A stretch of DNA of 47,684 bases from Lachnospiraceae bacterium (GTDB taxonomy: Bacteria; Bacillota; Clostridia; Lachnospirales; Lachnospiraceae). Positions within the stretch are counted from its first letter, which is position 1; each line of letters starts with the position of its first letter. The notes below the pieces were generated by a model. That model saw only the letters and a program-made list of their open reading frames with translations, ran no database searches and had not been told where the DNA came from. The position numbers and the translations under genes are program-made. The stretch covers positions 1 to 47,684 of the forward strand of contig CAJTEM010000036.1 of assembly GCA_910575255.1 (NCBI GenBank), given 5' to 3'. Below, one piece after another: positions 7,650-42,074 of this stretch.

Positions 7650-10559
7650 TCAGACGTCATCCTCTTTCGCGATGACTGCCTTCAGACGGGCAATCTCCCT
7701 GGGATAATAGTCTGTCACGGAATACTCACCAGCACGTTCCATCCACTCCAGAGCCTTCTTGGGATTGCCTCGTCTCTCTTCTATCTTTGCCAGATCCTCC
7801 AATGCTTCAAAGCAAATGGGGGCATTACAGGTAAATACCAGATTCTGCAAGGATATCGCATGCCTGACCATCTCCTCTGCCTCATCCAGACGTCCCAGAT
7901 GAATCAGTACGTCTGCGATACCCTCATAGCTGCAGCAGTCCGTAGGATCCTTTTTAAGCTCCCTCTGATAAGACTTCAGGGAACGCTCATAGCACTCCTC
8001 TGCCTTCTGCTTTTGCCCTAACGCCTCGTAGACCTCTCCGAGCTTCATCCAGCCGTAAGTGCTCTCCGGCTCCAGCTCTACTGCCTTTTCCAGATACGGA
8101 AGCGCTGTCTCTTGCTGCTGCCTCTCATTGGCAAAATATTTACCGAACACCCGCCAGCTCCTGGCATCCCTGGGATTATAGTCAATTGCCTTCTGATAGG
8201 CTTCTTCTGCCCTTGCATACTCCTTTGCACTTTCCCAGCAGTGGGCAATCTCCCGATAAGCCGAGGCCGTCTGGGACGGTTTCACCTCCATATAGCGGCC
8301 AAGGCAGCAGACCGCCTCCTCGTATTTCTTATGCCGGCGCAGCACAATCGCCCGAATCCAGAGAAGACTCCCGTCATCCGGAAGCTTGGCCAGACCCTGG
8401 CGAAGATATTCCAGAGCCCGCTCATCCTGATGGGTACGTTTCATCAGACGGCACAGATCCCGAATCGCCTGGAAATTACCATTCTCCCAGCCCTTCTCAT
8501 AGGCCTGTGCCGCTTCCTCCCATTTTCCCTGATTCTGCAGCATATCACCAAGGCCGTCCCAGGCCACTCCGTTGGTCTCGTTCCGCTCCAGAGTCCTTCG
8601 AAACGCAGCCTCTGCTTCCTCATACCGATGAAGCCCCTCCAGTGCCCTGGCTACACGGTAATGGATATAATAGCTGTCCAGCCCTGTCTCCATCATCTCC
8701 TGATACAGCTCGATCTCTTCCTCATAACGCTTCAAATCATGCAGATACTGCCCCTTCATATACCGTCTGCTCGGAGTCACCCGTTCCGCAAGCGCCTTAT
8801 CAATCCAGACAAGTGCCTCTGCAGGACGATTCAGATCCGAACACAGGCCGGCGTATTCCTGACAGACAACCCCTGCGTCTCCGGTCTGTTTTGCCAGCTC
8901 CTTTAGTACCTCCTCAGCCTTCTCATTCTCCTCCAGTCCCCGCAGCGCTCTGGCGTAATAGTAACGAACCTGCGCAATCTGATAGTTCTGGCGAAAAAGC
9001 TCTTCTGCCGCCTCTCGTACTTCCTGGTAGCGTTCCAAATCCAGAAGGATCTCCAGCCGCAGATTAAAGGCATCCCGATGAAAGCCGAACTCCAGCGCCA
9101 GATTGCACAGCCGTTCCGCCTCCTCCAAAAGCCCCTCGTTCGACATGATCTCCGCCCGCCGGTAGAAGATCTCCGGATCCTCCGGAAATTCTTTCTCTGC
9201 CTGCTCATAGATTTCCAGCGCCCTCTGCGTGTCCCCGAACTGCCGGTATTCGTCAGCCAGATCTACGTAGAGCTGGAACGGCCGTTTCTCCGGCTCCAAA
9301 AGATCCCAGATCTCCTGACGGTAATTTGCCGCCAATTCATAATCCTCCGTCTCATGACAGCTTCCCGCCATCATAATCAGCCAGGACATCCGCTGCTCAT
9401 CGGTTGGCTCCTGATTCTCCAGAAGTTCCCGCACCTGCTCATAACGCTCTGCCTGCCAGCAGACATTCGCCAGCTGCCACCAGTCATCGAACTCCGGATC
9501 CTCCTCCATCTCGTCCGCCAAAGCTTCTGCCGTCTCCCGGATCTGATGATCGACAAATTCCCATCGCTCCTGGGAACAGCTCTGACAGCGCTGATAACAA
9601 CCGAGCGCTGCTGCCAGATCTCCCTGCCGATGCACATAATCCCCCATCAGCTGCCAGTAGCCGGGGAATTCCGGTTCCCGCTCCAGCAAAGATTTGATAA
9701 GCTCCTCCAGCTCTTCCTTGTCTGCATCAGACTCCTCATAATCCATAGCCGTCCGAACATACCAGTAGCGGGTATTTGAATTCTCCGGATCCTGCTCATA
9801 CAGCTTTCTCGCCAGCTCCCAGGCCTGTCTTTCATGTCCTCTCTGCATAGATTCATGGCGAATCTTCAGCACGGTAAGATCCGGGTGCTCCATTCCCATG
9901 GCATCCAGCTTTTCCATCGCTGACTCCACTGCTTCGCGATCCTTTTCCCCCAGCGCAGTCCGAAGTGAGAAAAACGCCTCGCAAAAACTGTCGTAATCAA
10001 ATCCCTCCCGGACTTCCAGAATATCATAGCGAAAAGAGTCCTCCTCCACAATCCGGTCGTAGAGGTAATCCACAAACCCTTCCGGAAAATGCTGATACAG
10101 ATCATCCTCATCCTCTTGCCAGCCGAATATTCGATCAAATACCTCAAAGCAGGAGTGCGGCAGATGGAAATGATTCATCAAAAATCCCAAAAGCGCCCAT
10201 CCGGCCTCTCTCTGACTCTCCATCTCCTGGCATACCGGCAACAACAGAAGCTTTTCCCATTCCTCCGGCTGAATCCGACGTCCGTATTCCCGATAAAGCG
10301 CTTCTGTCTGTTTCAAAAAATCCTGGATTTCCTCTCTGCCCAGCATCTCACTCCGGACAAGCCCTGAGGCAACGCCTGCCTCCTTTTCTGTTCTCAGCAG
10401 CCTTGCCTGCTTCAGTGCCTCCTCCATGGCACCACGAAGCTGCCGGAATCCTTCCGGATCTTCCTCCGGATGATGTTCGGGCAATTTTTCCAGATATGCC
10501 CGTTTCACTTCTCCCTCATCCTCCGTAGGCCCAATTCCTAATATTCCCCAGCAATCCAT
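7650..10559 (-). CDS. J-domain-like and tetratricopeptide repeat protein
   Basis: Large cytoplasmic repeat protein, 969 residues from the chosen start. Residues 1-50 resemble a J-domain (WGILGI, then VKRAYLEKLPEHHPEEDPEG), but the usual HPD is replaced by HPE, so DnaK stimulation is uncertain. The rest is TPR units (repeated W..A, Y..A..AY and P-spaced helices), for example EEAAQAYEKGWENG and ARAEEAYQKAIDYNPRD, a scaffold for protein binding. The ATG at 10559 has GGAGGAGGAAAG before it. An upstream in-frame start would overlap ecfT by over 120 bases and lacks a ribosome site. It sits between ecfT and truA. No signal or membrane segment is seen. Confidence 0.8.
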   Translation of the reverse strand: MDCWGILGIGPTEDEGEVKRAYLEKLPEHHPEEDPEGFRQLRGAMEEALKQARLLRTEKEAGVASGLVRSEMLGREEIQDFLKQTEALYREYGRRIQPEEWEKLLLLPVCQEMESQREAGWALLGFLMNHFHLPHSCFEVFDRIFGWQEDEDDLYQHFPEGFVDYLYDRIVEEDSFRYDILEVREGFDYDSFCEAFFSLRTALGEKDREAVESAMEKLDAMGMEHPDLTVLKIRHESMQRGHERQAWELARKLYEQDPENSNTRYWYVRTAMDYEESDADKEELEELIKSLLEREPEFPGYWQLMGDYVHRQGDLAAALGCYQRCQSCSQERWEFVDHQIRETAEALADEMEEDPEFDDWWQLANVCWQAERYEQVRELLENQEPTDEQRMSWLIMMAGSCHETEDYELAANYRQEIWDLLEPEKRPFQLYVDLADEYRQFGDTQRALEIYEQAEKEFPEDPEIFYRRAEIMSNEGLLEEAERLCNLALEFGFHRDAFNLRLEILLDLERYQEVREAAEELFRQNYQIAQVRYYYARALRGLEENEKAEEVLKELAKQTGDAGVVCQEYAGLCSDLNRPAEALVWIDKALAERVTPSRRYMKGQYLHDLKRYEEEIELYQEMMETGLDSYYIHYRVARALEGLHRYEEAEAAFRRTLERNETNGVAWDGLGDMLQNQGKWEEAAQAYEKGWENGNFQAIRDLCRLMKRTHQDERALEYLRQGLAKLPDDGSLLWIRAIVLRRHKKYEEAVCCLGRYMEVKPSQTASAYREIAHCWESAKEYARAEEAYQKAIDYNPRDARSWRVFGKYFANERQQQETALPYLEKAVELEPESTYGWMKLGEVYEALGQKQKAEECYERSLKSYQRELKKDPTDCCSYEGIADVLIHLGRLDEAEEMVRHAISLQNLVFTCNAPICFEALEDLAKIEERRGNPKKALEWMERAGEYSVTDYYPREIARLKAVIAKEDDV

Positions 10560-10582
10560 CCTTTCCTCCTCCTTCTCTCCCT

Positions 10583-11383
10583 TTATGAGAAATGCCTCAG
10601 CAAAACGATTGCCAGAAGATACCCTGCATACACCAGGTATCCCATAGTATCCCGGCGATGATAGCATAGCGGCTTCATCTTCGTCCGTCCCTCCCCGCCA
10701 TGATAGCATCTCGCCTCCATCGCCATAGCCAGATCCGTGGCACGGCGAAATGCTGAAATAAACAGCGGCACCAGCAGCGGCACCATGCTTTTGGCCTTCT
10801 GAATCAGATTGCCGCTTTCAAAGTCTGCTCCCCGCGCCATCTGTGCCTTCATGATCTTGTCAGTCTCTTCCACCAGAATCGGAATAAAACGCAGAGCAAT
10901 CGACATCATCATCGACACCTCATGTACCGGCACTCCCACACGGTTTAAAAATCCCATGCTCTTTTCCAGTCCGTCTGTCAGTTCATTCGGCGTTGTGGTC
11001 AATGTCATCACGGAAGAACCAATCACCAGATAGATCAGACGCAGTGCCATAAAACCTGCCAGGCGCAGCCCCTCCCAGGTCATCCGCAGAAAGCCGATCC
11101 GGAACACCTCAGTCCCCGGAGTCAGAAACAGATTAAAGCTGACACTGATCAGAAGCAGAAACAGGATTGCTCTCAGCCCCCGGATCATAAAGGAAAACGG
11201 GACCTTCGACAGGCGAATCACCAATACCAGAAATACTGTCGCCACCCCATAGGCAGCCAGACTGTTCGCCAAAAACAGGGACACAATAAATACCATGGTA
11301 CCAAACAACTTGGTTCGCGGGTCCATCCTGTGAAGCACGGAATCCACCGGATAGTACTGTCCCAATGTAATCTCTCGTATCAT
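10583..11383 (-). CDS. ecfT: Energy-coupling factor transporter transmembrane protein EcfT
   Basis: Membrane component of group II ECF vitamin/metal importers, linking interchangeable S-components to the EcfA ATPases. The 266-residue chain opens with ITLGQYYPVDSVLHRMDPRTK, has several hydrophobic segments, and carries the two Ala-Arg-Gly-type coupling helices (AQMARGADFES and AMAMEARCYHG) that dock on the ATPases. It overlaps ecfA2 by four bases (ATGA-type coupling), in the conserved order ecfA1-ecfA2-ecfT. No S-component gene is present here, as expected for the group II type. Confidence 0.95.
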   Translation of the reverse strand: MIREITLGQYYPVDSVLHRMDPRTKLFGTMVFIVSLFLANSLAAYGVATVFLVLVIRLSKVPFSFMIRGLRAILFLLLISVSFNLFLTPGTEVFRIGFLRMTWEGLRLAGFMALRLIYLVIGSSVMTLTTTPNELTDGLEKSMGFLNRVGVPVHEVSMMMSIALRFIPILVEETDKIMKAQMARGADFESGNLIQKAKSMVPLLVPLFISAFRRATDLAMAMEARCYHGGEGRTKMKPLCYHRRDTMGYLVYAGYLLAIVLLRHFS

Positions 11384-30870: not shown

Positions 30871-31536
30871 TTAGTTTGCGATTAAAGCCCCTTGGTAGGT
30901 TCGCTCGTCTCTCACATTTAAGAACCCACACAACAAAATACCTTCTTTGATGTCTCTTTCGTGGGGCTCTATTGGGTGGATGGAAATTATATTTCCATTT
31001 GTAACAAATCCAAGCTCACTTGCAATAAAACCTACATGGAATGCTGTAATGTCATGAAACACAGTTACTTGGTAATTCATTTTCCTGAACATAAGATCAT
31101 ACATATTTATGTCTGACGTCAAATAAAGCCACGAAGAATCGATACTTTCCTGCATGATCTTCAAAAACTCCTCCTTAGAATCGGCCTCGATAACCTCTGT
31201 ATATAAGTTAATCTTTGAGGCTTCTATGGGAAGTTCACTGATGAGCCTTAAAACTATATCGGTACACAATCTGAATCTGCACCGTACATCATACCATCCG
31301 GTCTTGGTCTGTTCATCATAGTTCATGTGTAACACTAATCCATCAAGACCCCACGGTCTTGCTTCCCATCCACCAGTCTTACACTCCCGGATACCATGGT
31401 TTAATTCACCATCACTTCTCAAATAGTTCAGAGTCTCAATATCACAAATACCAGAAGATAAGATATCATCCTGAATCAGAAACTTATCCTTCATTTCTTC
31501 CAACGTTACTTTCCCGCTCAGCATCTCGTTTGTCAT
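30871..31536 (-). CDS. Unknown protein, family duplicated in tandem
   Basis: A 221-residue soluble protein that I do not recognise. It opens MTNEMLSGKVTLEEMKDKFL and contains GWEARPWGLDGLVLHMNYDE and FLKIMQESIDSSWLYLTSDI. A truncated paralogue lies directly upstream (31553-31915) with the same FLKIMQESIDSS segment. The start follows GGGGGGATATATAAG. There is no signal or membrane segment. It lies between the G9-tract gene and the KFPL-module genes and could be an immunity or accessory protein, which is only a guess from position and duplication. Confidence 0.6.
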   Translation of the reverse strand: MTNEMLSGKVTLEEMKDKFLIQDDILSSGICDIETLNYLRSDGELNHGIRECKTGGWEARPWGLDGLVLHMNYDEQTKTGWYDVRCRFRLCTDIVLRLISELPIEASKINLYTEVIEADSKEEFLKIMQESIDSSWLYLTSDINMYDLMFRKMNYQVTVFHDITAFHVGFIASELGFVTNGNIISIHPIEPHERDIKEGILLCGFLNVRDERTYQGALIAN

Positions 31537-31552
31537 CTTATATATCCCCCCT

Positions 31553-31915
31553 TTAGTCAGCTAACAGATTACCGTAATACTTTCCTTCCAAGGATATAAT
31601 TTTACAGGGTATGCCGTCTTCTTTGTCAAACATATCAGTGTGTAGTGGATAAATTATCATCGTTTTAGGGCCATTCCCATTATAATCATTCACAGAGACA
31701 ACAAAAGCTAAGAAATTTTCATCCATGCATAAAGATGATGAGTAACTCACATTTCTAAATATAATATCATATGAGTTTGTGGTATATGATATCATAATCA
31801 GTGAAGAATCGATACTCTCTTGCATGATCTTCAAAAACCCATCAGCGGTATCAGCCTTGATGACTTCTGTGTGTAGATAAATTTCTGAATCGATTTTAGG
31901 ATTACCTTCCTGCCT
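31553..31915 (-). pseudogene. Truncated paralogue of the gene at 30871
   Basis: The frame is open from about 31915 to 31553 but has no proper start: homology begins at KIDSEIYLHTEVIKADTADG, matching KINLYTEVIEADSKEE in the middle of the neighbour, and runs through FLKIMQESIDSS to the C-terminus. The N-terminal half is missing, cut near the end of the gene at 31932. An internal ATG at 31834 would give 93 residues without a good ribosome site. Confidence 0.65.
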
Positions 31916-31931: not shown

Positions 31932-32993
31932 TCACTCTTTCTCTAACTCCTGCAGCACCGATAAAATCCGGGTATAGCGCTCAGGGATATCGTTCAGGGA
32001 AATCCTCGTTTTATATCCCCTGGGTTCATAAACTGATTGGTAATCCTCCCTGTAAGAGCGCAATATCTCCCGGATTGTTTCTGACTGCAGCCGGTTCACC
32101 ACATCCAGCATGGCGCTTGTTGTTATTTCATACATAACCATGACAGGTTCGGTCATCCAGGGGCTTTCCTGGTCATATACATCCAGCATTACCCCCCGAA
32201 AAAGCGTATTCCCATCGGGAAACAGAAGGAAGTATAGCTTAGCGGCCATTTCTTCTGCCGCCTCATATTGCTCAAAGCCATCGTCTGAGGAACCCAAAGG
32301 ATACATCTGGCTCAGGGACGTACAGACGATAAAGTTCACACGCCGGATATTCGTAAACTCATTATCCGAAGAATACCGGGACAGAACCATATAGCTTGCC
32401 AGTTTTTCATCCATACACAGCACTAGCAGAACCAAAAAACCTTCTAAGTTTACAAACCGGCACAGCTTATCAAGCAGGGAACCTGTCTCCCCATCCGGCT
32501 GCCCCGTCTGTCCGGTAAGGTAGCCATACGCCAGTTTATTGATCAAAGTCCTGGTTTTCTCCGGAAGTTTCTGTCCTGCCACCACCTGTATGAGGCCGTC
32601 TAAGAACCGGGGAGAATAGACCATCCCCAAATATTCCGGGTCGGTACTTTTGGAAGCCCCCTCTAAAATATCCCCGTAAGAGGTTTTCAAAAACTCCTTC
32701 CATTCTTCATCCGTACAGGGCTTTAGCCTGTATTTCTCAAACAAGTCAGCCCCGGCATCCTCCGCTGCTAAAATACCGCACAGCTTTTTCATTGCCCCTT
32801 CTTTTTGTGGGTCTAACTCCCGTATCTGTTTTGCTTCCTCCTCATAGTACCGGTTTTCCAGCCATTCGGTAAGCTTTCCGTTACAAAAATATTCATATAT
32901 CTTTTCCAAATGGAAATATTCCCGGAGTTCCTCCATCGTATATACCCGCTGGCCGTTTCTCAGCACCAGCGGGAACTTAATCTTTTTTGCCAT
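31932..32993 (-). CDS. Unknown protein with N-terminal KFPL/YYEEEA module
   Basis: A 353-residue soluble protein. Residues 1-75 form a module shared with the next gene (KIKFPLVLRNGQRVYTMEEL, REYFHLEKIYEYFCNGKL, TEWLENRYYEEEAKQ, then KKLCGILA). I have the impression that such a module fronts varied C-termini in Lachnospiraceae proteins, but cannot name it. The rest is helical, with YSPRFLDGLIQVVAGQKLPE and VVNRLQSETIREILRSYRED, and matches nothing I know. The ATG follows AGGAGGTAAGT. It lies downstream of the WYL-AAA-nuclease operon on the same strand. Confidence 0.65.
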   Translation of the reverse strand: MAKKIKFPLVLRNGQRVYTMEELREYFHLEKIYEYFCNGKLTEWLENRYYEEEAKQIRELDPQKEGAMKKLCGILAAEDAGADLFEKYRLKPCTDEEWKEFLKTSYGDILEGASKSTDPEYLGMVYSPRFLDGLIQVVAGQKLPEKTRTLINKLAYGYLTGQTGQPDGETGSLLDKLCRFVNLEGFLVLLVLCMDEKLASYMVLSRYSSDNEFTNIRRVNFIVCTSLSQMYPLGSSDDGFEQYEAAEEMAAKLYFLLFPDGNTLFRGVMLDVYDQESPWMTEPVMVMYEITTSAMLDVVNRLQSETIREILRSYREDYQSVYEPRGYKTRISLNDIPERYTRILSVLQELEKE

Positions 32994-33084
32994 ACTTACC
33001 TCCTGTCAATGGCTCATTCCTTTGGTTCCCCATTCGCTTAATGATTCCTGGCATCTATAGCCTTTATCCATCCTGTAACCACAT

Positions 33085-33747
33085 TTATCTTTTTTCATGA
33101 ATCGCTGTTTCACAATTGCCCTCTTCGATTTTTATGGTAATCCCGTCCCCGGACACTTCCTTCGACCGGCCTGCCTGAATACGGATATCATGCAGGCAGG
33201 AAAAATCCACATTTTCAAATACAATCCCTAAATCATCAAAGGAGACATCCTCCTTACTCCTGACCTCAATCACAGCCCCGCATACCCCTATGTATTTACA
33301 GTCCCTCACTTTTACCGGGACAGTAAAACGGTTATCACACAGATATATCTCCCTCACGCCCTCATCCAGCAAATCAGATAATTCTTCCTGGTTAAAGGCA
33401 GACTGGCCGGCCTTTTTAAGCACTTCCTCATCATCCGTATATTGTTTTAAAAGTTCCCGCTTCCTGCGCCTTTCCTTCACATCCTCTAAATGAGGGGCTT
33501 CCTCCTGTGGGCATTCCACAGCAAAAATCTGGCATAGCTTCCTTTTCAGTTCCTGTACCTGTAGGTTTAATTCCTGTACCTGTTTTGCTTCCTCCTCATA
33601 ATACCGGTCCTCCAGCCATTCTGCCAGTCTGCCGCTGATAAAATTCCCATATATTTTTTCCAGGTCAAAATACTCCCGGAGTTCCTCCATTGTCCGCGCC
33701 TGCTGTCCATCTTTTAAAATCAAAGGAAACTTCATCTTTTTTGCCAT
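33085..33747 (-). CDS. Unknown protein with KFPL/YYEEEA module and beta-strand domain
   Basis: A 220-residue protein. Its N-terminal ~75 residues closely match those of the gene at 31932 (MKFPLILKDGQQARTMEELR, then EWLEDRYYEEEAKQV and RKLCQIFAVE). The C-terminal part (VREIYLCDNRFTVPVKVRDC, then KYIGVCGAVIEVRSKEDVSF) has the look of a parallel beta-helix or repeated beta-strand unit. I chose the ATG at 33747, with GGAGG at eight bases and alignment to the paralogue start; an upstream in-frame ATG at 33819 lacks homology. Confidence 0.65.
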   Translation of the reverse strand: MAKKMKFPLILKDGQQARTMEELREYFDLEKIYGNFISGRLAEWLEDRYYEEEAKQVQELNLQVQELKRKLCQIFAVECPQEEAPHLEDVKERRRKRELLKQYTDDEEVLKKAGQSAFNQEELSDLLDEGVREIYLCDNRFTVPVKVRDCKYIGVCGAVIEVRSKEDVSFDDLGIVFENVDFSCLHDIRIQAGRSKEVSGDGITIKIEEGNCETAIHEKR

Positions 33748-33831
33748 CTGTATTTCCTCCAAACTGCATTTCCATTCTGTCCGGGCAACATCTATCCTTA
33801 TAAGTTCCGGAATATTCATGCTTTCTTTCTT

Positions 33832-35400
33832 TTACCATCCAAAAAAACTGGCCACACCACCAGCAAAACTGCGTATTCCGTTTCCCACCGCGCTTCCCAC
33901 AGACTTCGCCGCTTCCCAGCCTCTTTTTGCGGCACTTACCACCACACTCCCAACCGTTTTCACCCCTTCATACACGGCTTCCCCAATGGACGAACCCGCC
34001 ATATAGCCAGCCAGGCCACCAACCACACCGCCCAGAACCGGCCCGGCAATAGGAACCCAGGAAAGGGCAGCGGCTCCCACCGCCATCCCGGCTCCGCCCC
34101 ATCCCAGGCCGCAGACCAGGGAGGTACTTGTCCGCCCCATCTGGTCCAGCCCTTCGGCTATGGTCAGTTCCCCGGCTGCCACTTTGGCCAGGATTTTGGC
34201 ATCCTCAATCCCCACACAGGCAATATTGGCAATCCAATGGACGGGGGTTCCCGGAGGGATTATGGCGATCATTCCCTTTTCCGTGCAGACCTTCAAGGCC
34301 CCGGTAGCCGCTGCTTTAACTCCGGCATCCGCCCCAGTGGTAAAGGCGGTCTCCACCAGTGCATCCGGGTCAATATCCTCCCCGTTTAATGCATTGGCAG
34401 CCAGCACAAAGCCGGTGCTGATTACTGCTGACTGGACGCCCATCTGAACCGCGTTTTTCCCGATATGCATCACCAAATCCCTGGTCTCAAACTCATGATA
34501 CCCCAGGCGTTCCACAATCCCCGCATCCTGGGCTTTTACCTGCAGGCCTTTCGCCTGCTCCTTGGTCAGGTGGCTGGAAAATACTCCCAGCTCCTCACTC
34601 CCCATTGTGGCGGTCACGGTCTTATTGGGAAACGCCGCCTGCACCTTGGCCACCTGGTCTGGCGGCACCAGAATCCTCTGGTTATGGTAATCGCCGCCTT
34701 TTAACAGCTTAATCGTCTCCTGGGCAGTTGCCCCATACTTAACCTGGTACTGCTGGACTATCTTCCCGGTCGCCTTATCCACGATTACCGTGTCAAAGGA
34801 ATTGCGCCCGTAGGCCTGCCCCGGCTCCGGCACCTGCACCCGTGCCTCATACTTAGAGCCTTTCAGGGCGGCATTGGCATTGAAGGTATTGACATGGTGC
34901 TGTTCCGCAATAAACCCGTCTAAGTTCATGCACTGGCTGACCTCCCCGGACTGAGTGGTCACCGCCCGCATCATCTGGGTATTCCCCATTTCCAGGGCGG
35001 CATCCACCCGGCTTAAGTAATTCCCCATCTCATTGACAGACAGGCCTATGGAAGCCTCCTTTACCTGCCTTTCCAGCCATTTCTCCGAGGATATCCCCTT
35101 CTTGGCCGCCTCCCTGGCCGAGTTTAGGTTCCGGTCATATTCCTCAATGCCGAATAAGGTCTCCTCTGCCAGCTTCTTAATCTTTTCTTCCTCCCATTCC
35201 GGCAGCTCCCTCCGATAGCAGCCTTCCAGCCATTCCTTCCCGCTGCTTTCCGGGTCCTTTTCCCGGTATGCCTCCAGGAACCGTTTCAGGACGGCATACA
35301 GTTCCTTTACCTCTTTTTCCGTCAGCCCTTCCAGCTGCGGCTCCCGGTTAAAAGAAACATCACCGGCCATCCCCCTGTTTCCTCCTGCTGTCTCCATCAT
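33832..35400 (-). CDS. Nuclease-like domain fused to a glycine-rich, membrane-like C-terminus
   Basis: A 522-residue protein, function unknown. Residues 25-150 are helical. Residues 160-255 resemble a PD-(D/E)XK-type nuclease (LDGFIAEQHHVNTFNANAAL, then NSFDTVIVDKATGKIVQQYQ and VKYG), with Glu 166, Asp 203 and Gln-Val-Lys 219-221 as possible site residues. Residues 430-522 are rich in Gly and Ala (AGPVLGGVVGGLAGYMAGSS), a glycine-zipper pattern seen in membrane-active proteins and toxins. No signal peptide. GGAGGGA precedes tandem ATGs. It starts six bases behind the AAA+ gene, so the two are probably partners. Confidence 0.65.
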   Translation of the reverse strand: MMETAGGNRGMAGDVSFNREPQLEGLTEKEVKELYAVLKRFLEAYREKDPESSGKEWLEGCYRRELPEWEEEKIKKLAEETLFGIEEYDRNLNSAREAAKKGISSEKWLERQVKEASIGLSVNEMGNYLSRVDAALEMGNTQMMRAVTTQSGEVSQCMNLDGFIAEQHHVNTFNANAALKGSKYEARVQVPEPGQAYGRNSFDTVIVDKATGKIVQQYQVKYGATAQETIKLLKGGDYHNQRILVPPDQVAKVQAAFPNKTVTATMGSEELGVFSSHLTKEQAKGLQVKAQDAGIVERLGYHEFETRDLVMHIGKNAVQMGVQSAVISTGFVLAANALNGEDIDPDALVETAFTTGADAGVKAAATGALKVCTEKGMIAIIPPGTPVHWIANIACVGIEDAKILAKVAAGELTIAEGLDQMGRTSTSLVCGLGWGGAGMAVGAAALSWVPIAGPVLGGVVGGLAGYMAGSSIGEAVYEGVKTVGSVVVSAAKRGWEAAKSVGSAVGNGIRSFAGGVASFFGW

Positions 35401-35406
35401 TCCCTC

Positions 35407-36918
35407 CTATCTGGACGCGTTTTTGAATTTATTTTGCTCGTATATCCGTTCCATCTGTTCAATAGGCTCCTTCATAATCTCCGACAGGGAATGGGTCTGC
35501 CGGATGGAGGCAAGGATGTCCTCCGTGGACACCGTTTCCTTCCCGGCAACAAAGGCCGATTCAATGCTGTCTTTGACTACGCTCTCAATATCCGCGCCGC
35601 TGTAGCCCTCCGTCCCCTCCACCAGGCGGCCGATATCCATCCCGGCAAGGTCTAAGGGGCGGCGCTTTTGGATGTGGATTTCAAAGATATTCCTCCGTTC
35701 CTCCTCCTTAGGAAGCCCCACATAATAAATCTCATCAAAACGCCCTTTCCGCAAAAGTTCTGCCGGAAGTCTCGTAATGTCATTGGCAGTGGCCACCACA
35801 AACACCGGCGCCTTCTTCTCCTGCATCCAGGTCAGAAAATTGCCGAACAGCCGGGTAGTCACCTCCGAGCCGCCGCTGTTCCCGTTGATTCCCGCAAAGG
35901 CCTTTTCCATCTCATCCACCCATAAGACACAAGGGGAGACCGCCTCGGCCAGGGACAATGCCCTCCGCAGGTTTTCCTCGCTTTCCCCCACATATTTCCC
36001 TAAGAGCCGTCCCATGTCCATCCGCAAAAGAGGCACCTGGAACAAATCCGCCGCTGCCTTTGCGCTTAAGGATTTCCCGCAGCCCGGGACACCGGCAATT
36101 AAAACCCCCTTGGGGGCATCCACCCCGTACCGCCCTGCCCGGTTTAAATCCTTCATCACCACGGCCTTCCGTTTCAGCCAGCCCTTTAAGACCTCCAGGC
36201 CACCGATGTCCTCCATTTTCTCCTTTAAGGGAATCATCTCCAGTATCCCGGATTTGCGTACCTTCTGCTGCTTCTGTTCAAAGATCAGCGCCAGGTCTTT
36301 CCTTGTCAGCTCACCGTCCTCACTTAAGGCAAGGCTCAAAATGCTGATGACCTCGGATTCCGTCAGCCCCCGGAAGCTGACTGCCATCTCGTCAAGCAGG
36401 CTTTGGGGGATGGAGGTTTTCTGCCCCTGGCAGAAGGCCTGGATTTCCTCCCGGATTTCCCCTTCTGTCAGGTAATCCATCTCCAGGATGGTGACCAGGT
36501 TCTCTAACTCCCTGGGGATTTTTAAGACAGGGGAAAGGAGCACAATATTGCATTCAATATCCATGCTGATGCGGATTGCCAGCTCCTTTACATAGGCTGC
36601 CACCGCAGCATCCTCTAACAGGGCGGGGACATCCCGGATGATAAGCAGCGACCGGTCGTAATCTTCAAAGGATATGATGTCTGCCACCTTCATAAACCCG
36701 CACCTGTTCGGCGGGACTTCATACTCCCCTTTTTGCAGCGAATACCGGGAATACCCCTGGGTCAGGCTCCACTCCATCAGGGTCTGACGGCCGGCGTTTT
36801 TTGCCGCTTTTTTTAACACGTCAAGCGCCTGCTTTTCCTCAAAAGTATTCAGGTACAGGATGGGGAACCCCGCATCCATATATTGTGTCAGCTTTTCTGT
36901 CAGCTTCTCATGCTTCAT
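35407..36918 (-). CDS. AAA+ ATPase, Ycf46-like
   Basis: A 503-residue ATPase. Residues 1-225 form a degenerate AAA-like half without a Walker A motif (MDAGFPILYLNTFEEKQALD, then FEDYDRSLLIIRDVPALLED). Residues 235-450 are an active-looking AAA module: Walker A GVPGCGKS (276-283), Walker B VLWVDEMEKA (331-340), sensor Asn in VATAND (376-380) and Arg finger region LLRKGRFDE. This two-half plan is that of Ycf46 of cyanobacteria and its bacterial relatives; no protease domain follows. The ATG overlaps the WYL gene by 11 bases. It probably remodels or delivers the product of the next gene, by inference. Confidence 0.85.
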   Translation of the reverse strand: MKHEKLTEKLTQYMDAGFPILYLNTFEEKQALDVLKKAAKNAGRQTLMEWSLTQGYSRYSLQKGEYEVPPNRCGFMKVADIISFEDYDRSLLIIRDVPALLEDAAVAAYVKELAIRISMDIECNIVLLSPVLKIPRELENLVTILEMDYLTEGEIREEIQAFCQGQKTSIPQSLLDEMAVSFRGLTESEVISILSLALSEDGELTRKDLALIFEQKQQKVRKSGILEMIPLKEKMEDIGGLEVLKGWLKRKAVVMKDLNRAGRYGVDAPKGVLIAGVPGCGKSLSAKAAADLFQVPLLRMDMGRLLGKYVGESEENLRRALSLAEAVSPCVLWVDEMEKAFAGINGNSGGSEVTTRLFGNFLTWMQEKKAPVFVVATANDITRLPAELLRKGRFDEIYYVGLPKEEERRNIFEIHIQKRRPLDLAGMDIGRLVEGTEGYSGADIESVVKDSIESAFVAGKETVSTEDILASIRQTHSLSEIMKEPIEQMERIYEQNKFKNASR

Positions 36919-37915
36919 GCCCTTTTCCTCCTTCTTCCGTATCTCTCCCGGCCGTCATCCGCCCCAGCTCCCGGCGGCTGATCACCCGTACCTTATCCCC
37001 CTGGCTGCGCAGCCACATGTCTATCCCATCCCCGAACACCTCCGCACGGATGGTATAACAGTCCCCCTCCCGCTTTAGCACCACGGCCGTGGGGAGCCTG
37101 TCTAATGCCGCCTCCGGGGAATGCCCGGTATACTCAAACACAATCCGCTGCAGCTTCCCCCCGTACATGAACTGCACCCGCTTCCGGAACTCCCCCTCCT
37201 CAAACCGGTTCCGGTAGGGCACCGCGAAATGGCTTTCCCGTACCTGGTAGGAGCGGATGCGGTCTATCCGGTAGACCGCAGGGTAAGGGTACTCCCGCCC
37301 TTCCCCCACCTCCTTCTCAATGTAGGCAATCAGGTAAAAGTAATACTCAGAAAACATAATCCCCACCGGCCTTACCACCCTCATGACCGGCTCTGCGGCT
37401 CCCGGCTTTTCATATTCCATCTCCATATGCCTCCGGCTTTTCACCGCCTTCCCGATCTCCCATAGCTTTGGGACAATCTCCTTATGGTGGTGGGGTTCCC
37501 TGTAATGGTACTGCTCATTGCCGATCAGCTCCGCCACCTGCTTCCTGTCCGAAGGGGGCATGCAGTTATCCAGCAGCTTCCCGATCATAGGCTCCAGCTC
37601 CTTTTTGGTGAGGGCACGGCTCTCTAAGAGGATTTTGCATACTGCCAACATCTCCCCTCCGGACATCTTCCGGCTCCCGCAGTCTAAGACGTACCCCTTC
37701 CTTTTCCGGTCATACACGATAGCCGGGCTTATCCCGGTTCCCGATGGCTGGTTTGCAAAATACGCCCGCAAATCATCGATATCCCTCTGTACGGAACGGG
37801 CATTGACCTCAAACAGGGCGGCGATCTCCTGCTTCTTCACCAGCTCCCCGTCATGCAGGCGCTGGTAGAGGGTGAGCATCCGCTCCGTTTTGCTCTCTGT
37901 GAAATGTGCTGCCAT
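36908..37915 (-). CDS. WYL-domain transcriptional regulator
   Basis: A 335-residue regulator. The N-terminal HTH (VKKQEIAALFEVNARSVQRD, then IDDLRAYF) is of the DeoR/HTH_11 type; the central WYL domain is seen in MRVVRPVGIMFSEYYFYLIA followed by YPAVYRIDRIRSYQV; and a WCX-like C-terminus follows (RIVFEYTGHSPEAALDRLPT). WYL regulators are frequent in defence islands and sense nucleic-acid ligands in some cases. I chose the ATG at 37915, with AGGAGGGGAGCTGCC before it. It opens the operon with the AAA+ and nuclease-like genes and probably controls it through the palindrome at 37977. Confidence 0.88.
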   Translation of the reverse strand: MAAHFTESKTERMLTLYQRLHDGELVKKQEIAALFEVNARSVQRDIDDLRAYFANQPSGTGISPAIVYDRKRKGYVLDCGSRKMSGGEMLAVCKILLESRALTKKELEPMIGKLLDNCMPPSDRKQVAELIGNEQYHYREPHHHKEIVPKLWEIGKAVKSRRHMEMEYEKPGAAEPVMRVVRPVGIMFSEYYFYLIAYIEKEVGEGREYPYPAVYRIDRIRSYQVRESHFAVPYRNRFEEGEFRKRVQFMYGGKLQRIVFEYTGHSPEAALDRLPTAVVLKREGDCYTIRAEVFGDGIDMWLRSQGDKVRVISRRELGRMTAGRDTEEGGKGHEA

Positions 37916-37970
37916 GGCAGCTCCCCTCCTTTCTCTCCCAATGCCTTTAGTATACCTCACGCCTATAGAC

Positions 37971-37989
37971 AAGTCCTGTCACTGTGACA
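37971..37989. promoter_or_regulatory. Palindromic operator before the WYL operon
   Basis: TGTCACTGTGACA (37977-37989) is a perfect 13-base palindrome. A further GACA-like half site overlaps to the left (GACAAGTCCTGTC, 37968-37980), so half sites are stacked. On the minus strand TTGTCA, a 17-base spacer and TATAGG could be the promoter, placing the palindrome over the -35. A WYL-regulator site is inferred. Confidence 0.5.
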
Positions 37990-38114
37990 AAAAAATTACT
38001 TTCTTCCAAAATTTTACAATAGATGTTGATAGCAGTCAATAACTAGCAAAACAGACATTATAAGCATGCACTTTTCCTCTGCTTTATCCTATGATTATAG
38101 CCAGAGGTGAATAT

Positions 38115-39978: not shown

Positions 39979-40001
39979 TCTATATAAAGGTGGTGACAAA
40001 T

Positions 40002-40361
40002 TTGGATTTAAGTGAACGCATTCGGACAATATTAAAAGAAAACTATTTAAAGCAAAAGGAGCTGGCCAAAGAGCTTGGTGTTACAGAAAGCTACATTTCT
40101 GCCATCCTCAACCACAGGAATACAAACATTTCCCAGGCACTAGCCACCCTGATTGAGGAAAAGTACGGCTATTACAGCCAGTGGGTACTAAATGGCACAG
40201 AGCCAAAGTTAAAAGTAGCTGGAAAGAATCGGACCCTATCGGATATCCACCAGAGGGCAATCCTGCAGATTGAGCGGCTTGCCCCGGAGCAGATCAGAGC
40301 GGTCCTGGCTTTTATCAAATACTTAGAGGACATTGAGCGTAATCAATTAAACAAACTATAA
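40002..40361 (+). CDS. XRE-type regulator, copy 1
   Basis: A 119-residue repressor-like protein. The HTH is KQKELAKELGVTESYISAIL followed by NHRNTNISQALATLIEEKYG; the C-terminal helix is ILQIERLAPEQIRAVLAFIK. It starts at TTG (40002), chosen because the close paralogue at 41709 has ATG at the same place and AAAGGTGGTG precedes both. A GTG four codons upstream is an alternative. A divergent small gene and a palindromic operator lie upstream; a terminator lies 335 bases downstream. Confidence 0.85.
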   Translation: MDLSERIRTILKENYLKQKELAKELGVTESYISAILNHRNTNISQALATLIEEKYGYYSQWVLNGTEPKLKVAGKNRTLSDIHQRAILQIERLAPEQIRAVLAFIKYLEDIERNQLNKL

Positions 40362-41685: not shown

Positions 41686-41708
41686 GCTACATAAAGGTGG
41701 TGACAAAG

Positions 41709-42074
41709 ATGAATTTAAGTGAACGGATTCGATTAATCTTAAAAGAAAACCATTTGAAACAGAAAGAGCTGGCTAAGGAGCTGGGTGTTACGGAAAGCTA
41801 TATCTCTGCCATCCTTAATGAACGGAACCCCCGGATTTCCCAGGCCTTAGCAACTCTGATTGAAGAAAAATACGGCTATCACAGCGGCTGGGTGCTGTCT
41901 GGCACAGAGCCGAAATTAAAGATCGCCGGAAAAAACCGGGCCTTATCGGATATCCACCAGAGGGCAATCCTGCAGATTGAGCGGCTTGCCCCAGAACAAA
42001 TCCGAGCAGTCCTGGCTTTTATTAAATATTTAGAGGAAGCAGAACTTGAGGGAGGTGGGGAACACCTCCAATAA
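41709..42074 (+). CDS. XRE-type regulator, copy 2
   Basis: A 121-residue paralogue of the protein at 40002: HTH KQKELAKELGVTESYISAIL then NERNPRISQALATLIEEKYG, and tail ILQIERLAPEQIRAVLAFIK followed by YLEEAELEGGGEH. The ATG is preceded by AAAGGTGGTGACAA. Because the operators of the two copies are almost identical, each repressor may act on both switches. Confidence 0.87.
   Translation: MNLSERIRLILKENHLKQKELAKELGVTESYISAILNERNPRISQALATLIEEKYGYHSGWVLSGTEPKLKIAGKNRALSDIHQRAILQIERLAPEQIRAVLAFIKYLEEAELEGGGEHLQ

Follow-up and report, generated by a model that had tools for sequence, protein, structure and literature searches.

What do five closely spaced genes on the minus strand of a Lachnospiraceae contig do together? 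The stretch analyzed here, referred to as the window, is the entire contig CAJTEM010000036.1 (C36; 47,684 nucleotides, positions 1 to 47,684) of a 5.1-Mb genome (GenBank assembly GCA_910575255.1), and loci compared with it are labelled with L numbers. In 5' to 3' order the genes encode a WYL regulator, a CDC48/Ycf46-like AAA+ ATPase, a protein of 522 amino acids (aa) and two proteins with a common N-terminal module of roughly 78 residues, labelled KFPL here. An original prediction, made from the sequence of the window, had presented them as a tight operon encoding a candidate defence system. The main result of our analyses is that the AAA+ gene and the gene for the 522-aa protein form a conserved pair, for which an anti-phage role can tentatively be proposed.

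The five predicted open reading frames (ORFs), which span 31932-37972, are all present with their predicted spacings: the WYL and AAA+ genes overlap by 11 bases (36908-36918) and the AAA+ gene lies 6 bases from the 522-aa gene. Against a tight operon of all five genes, the last two come after gaps of 84 bases (12 with the 33819 start of the 244-aa protein) and 91 bases. Judged against its homologue at L002, to which it is 70% identical and whose start fits the ATG, the WYL protein probably begins at the ATG at 37915 (335 aa); the 244-aa protein, set beside other KFPL proteins, probably starts at 33747. Pfam families above cut-off were AAA and AAA_lid_3 in the 503-aa protein and WYL in the 354-aa protein, the latter with an additional HTH_11 match below cut-off; the 522-, 244- and 353-aa proteins had no Pfam family at cut-off. 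The genes and protein regions are as follows.

36908-37915, minus strand: WYL-domain transcriptional regulator, 335 aa from ATG (354 aa from a TTG at 37972); Pfam WYL, 7e-11
35407-36918, minus strand: CDC48/Ycf46-like AAA+ ATPase, 503 aa; Pfam AAA, 1e-28, at residues 272-401
33832-35400, minus strand: effector-like protein, 522 aa; helical N-terminus, PD-(D/E)XK-like domain, glycine-zipper C-terminus
34609-34920, minus strand: nuclease-like domain of the 522-aa protein, residues ~161-264, with E166, D203, Q219 and K221
33976-34119, minus strand: hydrophobic glycine-zipper segment of the 522-aa protein, residues ~428-475, from hydropathy
33085-33819, minus strand: KFPL-module protein, 244 aa (probably 220 aa from an ATG at 33747); module profile E 1e-37, this sequence being within the training set
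31932-32993, minus strand: KFPL-module protein, 353 aa, with a different C-terminal part; module profile E 2e-37, again with the sequence in the training set

The AAA+ protein has one ATPase domain, in its C-terminal half, with full motifs. PGCGKS, Walker B (LW-V/I-DE-x-EKA) and R-K/R-GRFDE are retained in all ten aligned members, the sensor-1 segment deviates in four of the ten with TAN retained, and a sequence search of solved structures with the AAA+ alignment led to p97/CDC48. Pairing was defined as the presence of a 522-type gene within 2.5 kb of an AAA+ homologue on the same strand, and was scored for the 102 AAA+ homologues above 150 bits. All 17 homologues scoring at least 657 bits were paired, compared with none of the 85 scoring at most 462 bits, although this gap in score is partly built in, ten paired proteins having served to train the AAA+ profile. 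L028, L029 and L090, which are all paired, were reached by searches with AAA+ and not with the 522-aa protein. A quick tree was built from the 17 paired proteins and 45 of the 85 unpaired ones, and in it the paired set formed one side of a branch with an SH-aLRT (Shimodaira-Hasegawa-like approximate likelihood ratio test) value of 99, the long L004 branch being unsure. Starting from the other gene, we found an AAA+ gene adjoining the 522-type gene at 12 of the 12 mapped loci with a full-length, strong match (the window, L002, L004, L037-L041 and L074-L077), and the same adjacency in two further plasmid records and one Escherichia coli record. Left out of these pairing counts were L006 (odd frame, contig end), L053 (C-terminal part only on its contig) and weak matches; L006 was kept in the count of conserved residues given below. 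The AAA+ and 522-aa genes thus belong together, as predicted, and rare adjacency, which would have refuted the prediction, was not what we observed.

Searches with the 522-aa protein matched 18 of 397 genomes of the window's family at E 1e-3, with seven copies in five genomes above 400 bits, and 17 of 391 genomes of its class, with five genomes above 600 bits; genome G000 is included in both sets of five. Elsewhere, 15 plasmid records, one phage record and one locus of the named-genome collection were matched. The weaker matches, some of which share part of the profile only, were not counted as members (13 of the 18 family genomes, that of L053 among them, and 12 of the 17 class genomes). On plasmids, AAA+ neighbourhoods were examined in nine of 698 matching records, plus three Enterobacteriaceae records that recurred there; two of the nine were paired and seven unpaired. 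No 522-type or KFPL gene was detected at E 0.01 among 80 viral loci, 73 of them with an AAA+ ORF, and searches of viral contigs with alignments A1 and A4 retrieved no relative of the 522-aa protein.

Two unusual copies of the 522-type gene were also noted. At L006:1-1596 (MT839117.1) the frame begins, by eye, with a TnpB-like stretch, as if by insertion or chimera, and L080:3212-3454 is a remnant interrupted by four stops, with a WYL-type gene present on its contig as well.

The other genes of the locus also recur with the pair. The 353- and 244-aa proteins do have a common N-terminal module (64% identity over 78 residues, E 1e-30), which has no Pfam match. A KFPL gene was located within 2.5 kb of 15 of the 17 paired AAA+ genes, upstream in 13 cases and, at two loci (L090 and the window itself), downstream, so that KFPL proteins look like core components, not mere followers; none was found at L077, which lies near a contig start, or at L004, where a VWA gene is upstream instead. 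WYL homologues were present at 8 of 15 loci (L004 judged from annotation). KFPL proteins differ from locus to locus. Among 250 genomes of the family, the module occurred in five, with nine copies, of which seven (three genomes) belong to the cassette; one of the remaining two is beside a WYL gene (L186), and the other, at L185:64-4905, adjoins a DUF2201 vWA protein and a MoxR-like ATPase, which makes the module common to two kinds of AAA+ systems. At L002:7062-13276 and L037:1368-8261, small neighbouring proteins, including a KFPL protein, have unlike bodies and a common tail of about 20 residues resembling FIDTDTESTLLNMERVSECI, perhaps a docking tag. Among 3228 ORF tails, a profile of this tail found at E <0.2 only its seven source sequences and their copies in overlapping slices, and did not reach the window.

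The 522-aa protein combines a helical N-terminus, a PD-(D/E)XK-like domain and a glycine-zipper C-terminus. Its 12 best hydropathy windows start at residues 428-449, and 3 of 10 522-type members match Pfam Gly-zipper_Omp (best 1e-5), the window protein not being among the listed matches. Within the nuclease-like domain, all 14 domain-bearing members, from Enterobacteriaceae to the window's own group, agree at E166, D203, Q219 and K221, and they have the E-D-(E/D/Q)xK set expected of an active PD-(D/E)XK nuclease. Glutamine can occupy this motif position in active PD-(D/E)XK nucleases. In a structure model of the protein (mean pLDDT, predicted local distance difference test, of 38), the four residues are placed along a helix-strand-strand-strand-helix-strand run, the order of elements in the PD-(D/E)XK core. 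Sequence searches of solved structures with the 522-aa and KFPL alignments gave nothing below E 0.08. Our assignment to the PD-(D/E)XK fold draws on the motif, on this low-confidence model and on the analysis of its homologues in the available text of PMC11090510.

We tentatively favour, at somewhat less than an even chance, the view that the locus is a mobile, self-regulated conflict cassette, most likely an anti-phage abortive-infection system in which an AAA+ ring would store and fire the 522-aa protein. The latter would be the effector, with a nuclease domain of the PD-(D/E)XK type carried by a glycine-zipper body that acts on membranes. A CDC48/Ycf46-like AAA+ hexamer would bind it and hold it soluble and inactive until, upon a signal, the ring remodelled it, leading to the cutting of nucleic acid, insertion into the membrane, or both. 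The KFPL proteins, with their variable C-terminal parts, might serve as adaptors or sensors linking the trigger to the ring via their common module, and the WYL protein would control the operon through a TGACA-N5-TGTC operator. The gene pairing, the order of domains, the conserved residues, the operator-like repeat and the defence neighbourhoods of some relatives are observed; in this scheme we infer the contact between AAA+ protein and effector, catalysis, membrane insertion, sensing and the abortive outcome.

A number of observations weigh against this proposal, beginning with the training of the AAA+ profile and the sparse occurrence of the operator (see below). The third motif of the nuclease-like domain reads QxK instead of (D/E)xK, and the AlphaFold models are poor, with the 244-aa protein at a mean pLDDT of 40 and the 522-aa protein at the value given above. 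L028, L029 and L090 are without the nuclease-like domain and retain parts of the N- and C-terminal regions; as these three are spread over both halves of the AAA+ tree, the domain has been lost or gained more than once. At L040, two AAA+ genes share one 522-type gene. No known defence gene was found nearby among 20 scanned window proteins, mobile-element genes being present instead, and L002 too has DUF932 and RadC homologues downstream and, among its scanned neighbours, no known defence gene. Finally, in the text available, the paper on CoCoNuT systems (PMC11090510) calls the nuclease fold of the pair inactivated.

That published view underlies the main rival to our proposal, in which the nuclease-like domain would be catalytically dead and bind nucleic acid (such as tmRNA or the RNA of stalled ribosomes), the CDC48-like AAA+ protein would be an extractor, and the cassette would remodel or rescue translation complexes under phage attack. 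Being near to the reading of the CoCoNuT paper, as far as its available text goes, this explanation would also account for the QxK motif, for the dispensability of the domain in some members and for the other residues seen by eye at the Q position of two more distant relatives, P0014 and P0016. The invariance of all four residues wherever the domain occurs, set against its complete loss from three members, nevertheless exceeds the apparent needs of nucleic-acid binding, and we regard this rival as rather improbable. Judged from the alignment, the conservation pattern would reopen the question of whether the nuclease is active; it argues against an inactivated fold but cannot settle the matter.

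The genomic neighbourhoods of the pair bear on what kind of conflict the cassette might serve. The defence setting that the original prediction implied is seen in some lineages, next to CoCoNuT-type, BREX and McrBC genes, but is not visible in the window, whose neighbouring genes (RadC, DUF932 (TIGR03299), YqaJ and a Rad52-like protein) suggest a mobile element. In L002, from a Lachnospiraceae metagenome-assembled genome and the closest relative with a name, the order is WYL, KFPL, AAA+, 522-type gene. In Enterobacteriaceae the pair lies between VWA genes, together with genes for a Card1-type CARF nuclease, PP2C, a kinase, a helicase, a ParA-named protein and DUF2357; genes fitting CoCoNuT Type III-A were found on Enterobacteriaceae plasmids and one E. 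coli chromosome. Judged by DNA likeness, the E. coli-type locus is present in 3 of 5426 complete E. coli genomes, and in the one of these carriers examined, E. coli ZF34, it adjoins BREX genes. On an Exiguobacterium plasmid, McrB- and McrC-type genes are followed by the cassette and then by a Schlafen-AlbA gene, and at L074 dynamin-like and HerA-like genes adjoin it.

The mobile-element genes around the locus and the 15 plasmid records with a 522-type gene would also fit an addiction or maintenance module, in which a 522-aa toxin is restrained by the AAA+ or KFPL proteins and loss of the element kills the cell; the variation of KFPL proteins between loci, as antidotes may vary, agrees with this. 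In our judgement, though, an ATP-driven set of three to five genes, with a WYL gene at 8 of the 15 loci, seems costly for addiction alone, and the pair is found inside a chromosomal defence island too, so that we consider such a module unlikely.

Other neighbours raise the possibility that the 522-aa protein is an exported, bacteriocin-like toxin that kills neighbouring cells and is loaded by the AAA+ protein. A contact-dependent two-protein bacteriocin of Caulobacter consists of glycine-zipper proteins, according to the part of PMC5380434 available. Near the cassette of a Microcystis plasmid, on the opposite strand, are genes for a TolC-family protein and a type IV secretion DNA-binding domain; an Enterobacter plasmid has traI about 8 kb upstream; and on a Treponema plasmid a more distant AAA+ relative lies among injection-system genes. 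The Treponema protein, however, belongs to the unpaired group, conjugation genes are usual on plasmids, and no such secretion-type gene recurs at a second paired locus among the neighbourhoods examined, in which many neighbours were without a family-library scan. Export therefore seems very unlikely to us, and an anti-phage cassette remains the reading that we tentatively prefer.

Its proposed self-regulation relates to the region upstream of the WYL gene, where three features were recorded.

37968-37981, minus strand: operator-like inverted repeat TGACA-N5-TGTC, 63-70 bases ahead of the WYL start at four loci
37977-37989, no strand assigned: palindrome TGTCAC-T-GTGACA (TGTCACTGTGACA), present and not conserved
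38011-38039, minus strand: promoter-like site TTGACT-17-TAAAAT ahead of the WYL gene, with 10 of 12 matches in a consensus scan

The inverted repeat lies at -63 to -70 before the WYL genes of the window, L002, L037 and L041. It occurred in four of six upstream regions and then in none of six further ones, against a background of 0.003 per 200 nucleotides. It is thus missing from 8 of the 12 upstream regions of WYL-type genes (those at L074, L075 and L039 and of five WYL-type genes from loci outside the cassette), and, as the WYL genes of three bearers are closely related, the four do not count as independent cases. The palindrome that the original prediction had placed before the first gene is present and overlaps this repeat, but it is not conserved, the 13-mer being found, among the loci compared, in the window and otherwise only in L083, which is itself a slice of that contig. 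One like it is held by 12% of shuffled 150-nucleotide upstream sequences, and we rejected TGTCACTGTGACA as the operator. The promoter-like site is weak, because eight such sites occur in the region compared with 6.7 expected.

Another WYL gene, 49% identical to that of the window, was found at L045:1-3364, where it is separated from a cut dynamin-like gene (by eye) by the gene for a 477-aa protein that has a glycine-zipper C-terminus and, by eye, contains an HNH-like stretch. Elsewhere in the window, 30871-31536 and 31553-31834 are neighbouring paralogues (34% identity over 98 residues), the larger of which has no Pfam family above cut-off; 39990-40361 and 41697-42074 encode closely similar helix-turn-helix-type regulators (by eye) of 123 and 125 aa, 1.3 kb apart; and 7650-10709 encodes a 1019-aa tetratricopeptide repeat protein that weakly matches DnaJ close to the N-terminus.

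How does the locus compare with known systems? The original prediction held that the set matches no named system, which does not stand for its core: the available text of PMC11090510 (2024) already describes an AAA+/glycine-zipper pair as an extension of Type III-A CoCoNuT operons. As in that extension (SpoVK and glycine zipper), the window has a CDC48-like AAA+ gene beside a gene for a glycine-zipper protein with a PD-(D/E)XK-like fold. The Enterobacteriaceae homologues, whose 522-aa protein is 38% and whose AAA+ protein is 37-38% identical to those of the window, have neighbours (Card1-type CARF nuclease, two VWA, PP2C, kinase, helicase, DUF2357) that match the description in PMC11090510 as available. 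That text suggests that such extensions could be stand-alone cassettes, and its section on extensions places the AAA+/glycine-zipper one inside CoCoNuT operons. Unlike in CoCoNuT, no McrBC, VWA, CARF, PP2C or kinase family was found among the 20 scanned window proteins, and the pair is not embedded between two VWA genes, the KFPL genes and an added WYL regulator adjoining it instead. The window AAA+ protein (503 aa) also differs from the CoCoNuT one (715 aa) in having no C-terminal extension.

A second likeness is to PDC-M09B of PADLOC, where we take PDC to stand for phage defence candidate. The more distant relative P0014 at L042 matches this profile at 3e-18, has nuclease-like and hydrophobic regions in common with the 522-aa protein and has an MmeI-type enzyme on its contig. 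The 522-aa protein of the window, unlike P0014, scores only E 0.33 and does not attain a profile match, and the loci L042-L044 have a 227-238-aa partner with no match to the window AAA+ protein. In L042:534-6117 and L043, the more distant 522-aa relatives are preceded by a gene of 235-238 aa; the MmeI-type enzyme is encoded upstream of the L042 relative, and L043 has an ORF of like size there. No paper on PDC-M09 was found.

Two further assignments were rejected. IetAS was considered because PADLOC IetA matches the ATPase domain of the AAA+ protein (E 4e-25); the score was 82.7 bits, against an NCBIfam IteA equivalog cut-off of 510, and no other Iet protein was named in a scan of ten window proteins. 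The MoxR-vWA ternary conflict systems, in the available text of PMC7159879, likewise have an AAA+ ring with variable partners, but the AAA+ protein of the window belongs to the CDC48 type and not to MoxR (PF00004 and AAA_lid_3) and no vWA protein was found among the 20 scanned.

The exact free-standing set of WYL, KFPL and pair was not found in the literature searched, most subscription journals being outside it, nor was the free-standing WYL/KFPL form found in the available texts of PMC11090510, PMC7159879 and PMC12839542. Relative to these systems, we read the locus as a cassette that stands alone, has a regulator of its own and adds a new, presumed adaptor module. Forms outside CoCoNuT operons occur in the window's family and class, on the Exiguobacterium plasmid, beside McrBC, and on the Microcystis plasmid; they add the KFPL module and an operator-like site and are small enough for cloning and testing. 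A bolder reading, which we think doubtful, is that they represent a free-standing class in which a CDC48-type ring would store and fire membrane-active effectors with exchangeable heads, PD-(D/E)XK or none in this clade and perhaps HNH in the looser relative at L045. KFPL would then be a docking module of about 78 residues on interchangeable adaptors that instruct the ring, used also beside the MoxR-vWA pair, and the nuclease would be active, contrary to the CoCoNuT paper. Should our proposal hold, the cassette would exemplify, for bacterial immunity, the control of a membrane-active nuclease by a motor of the p97/CDC48 type.

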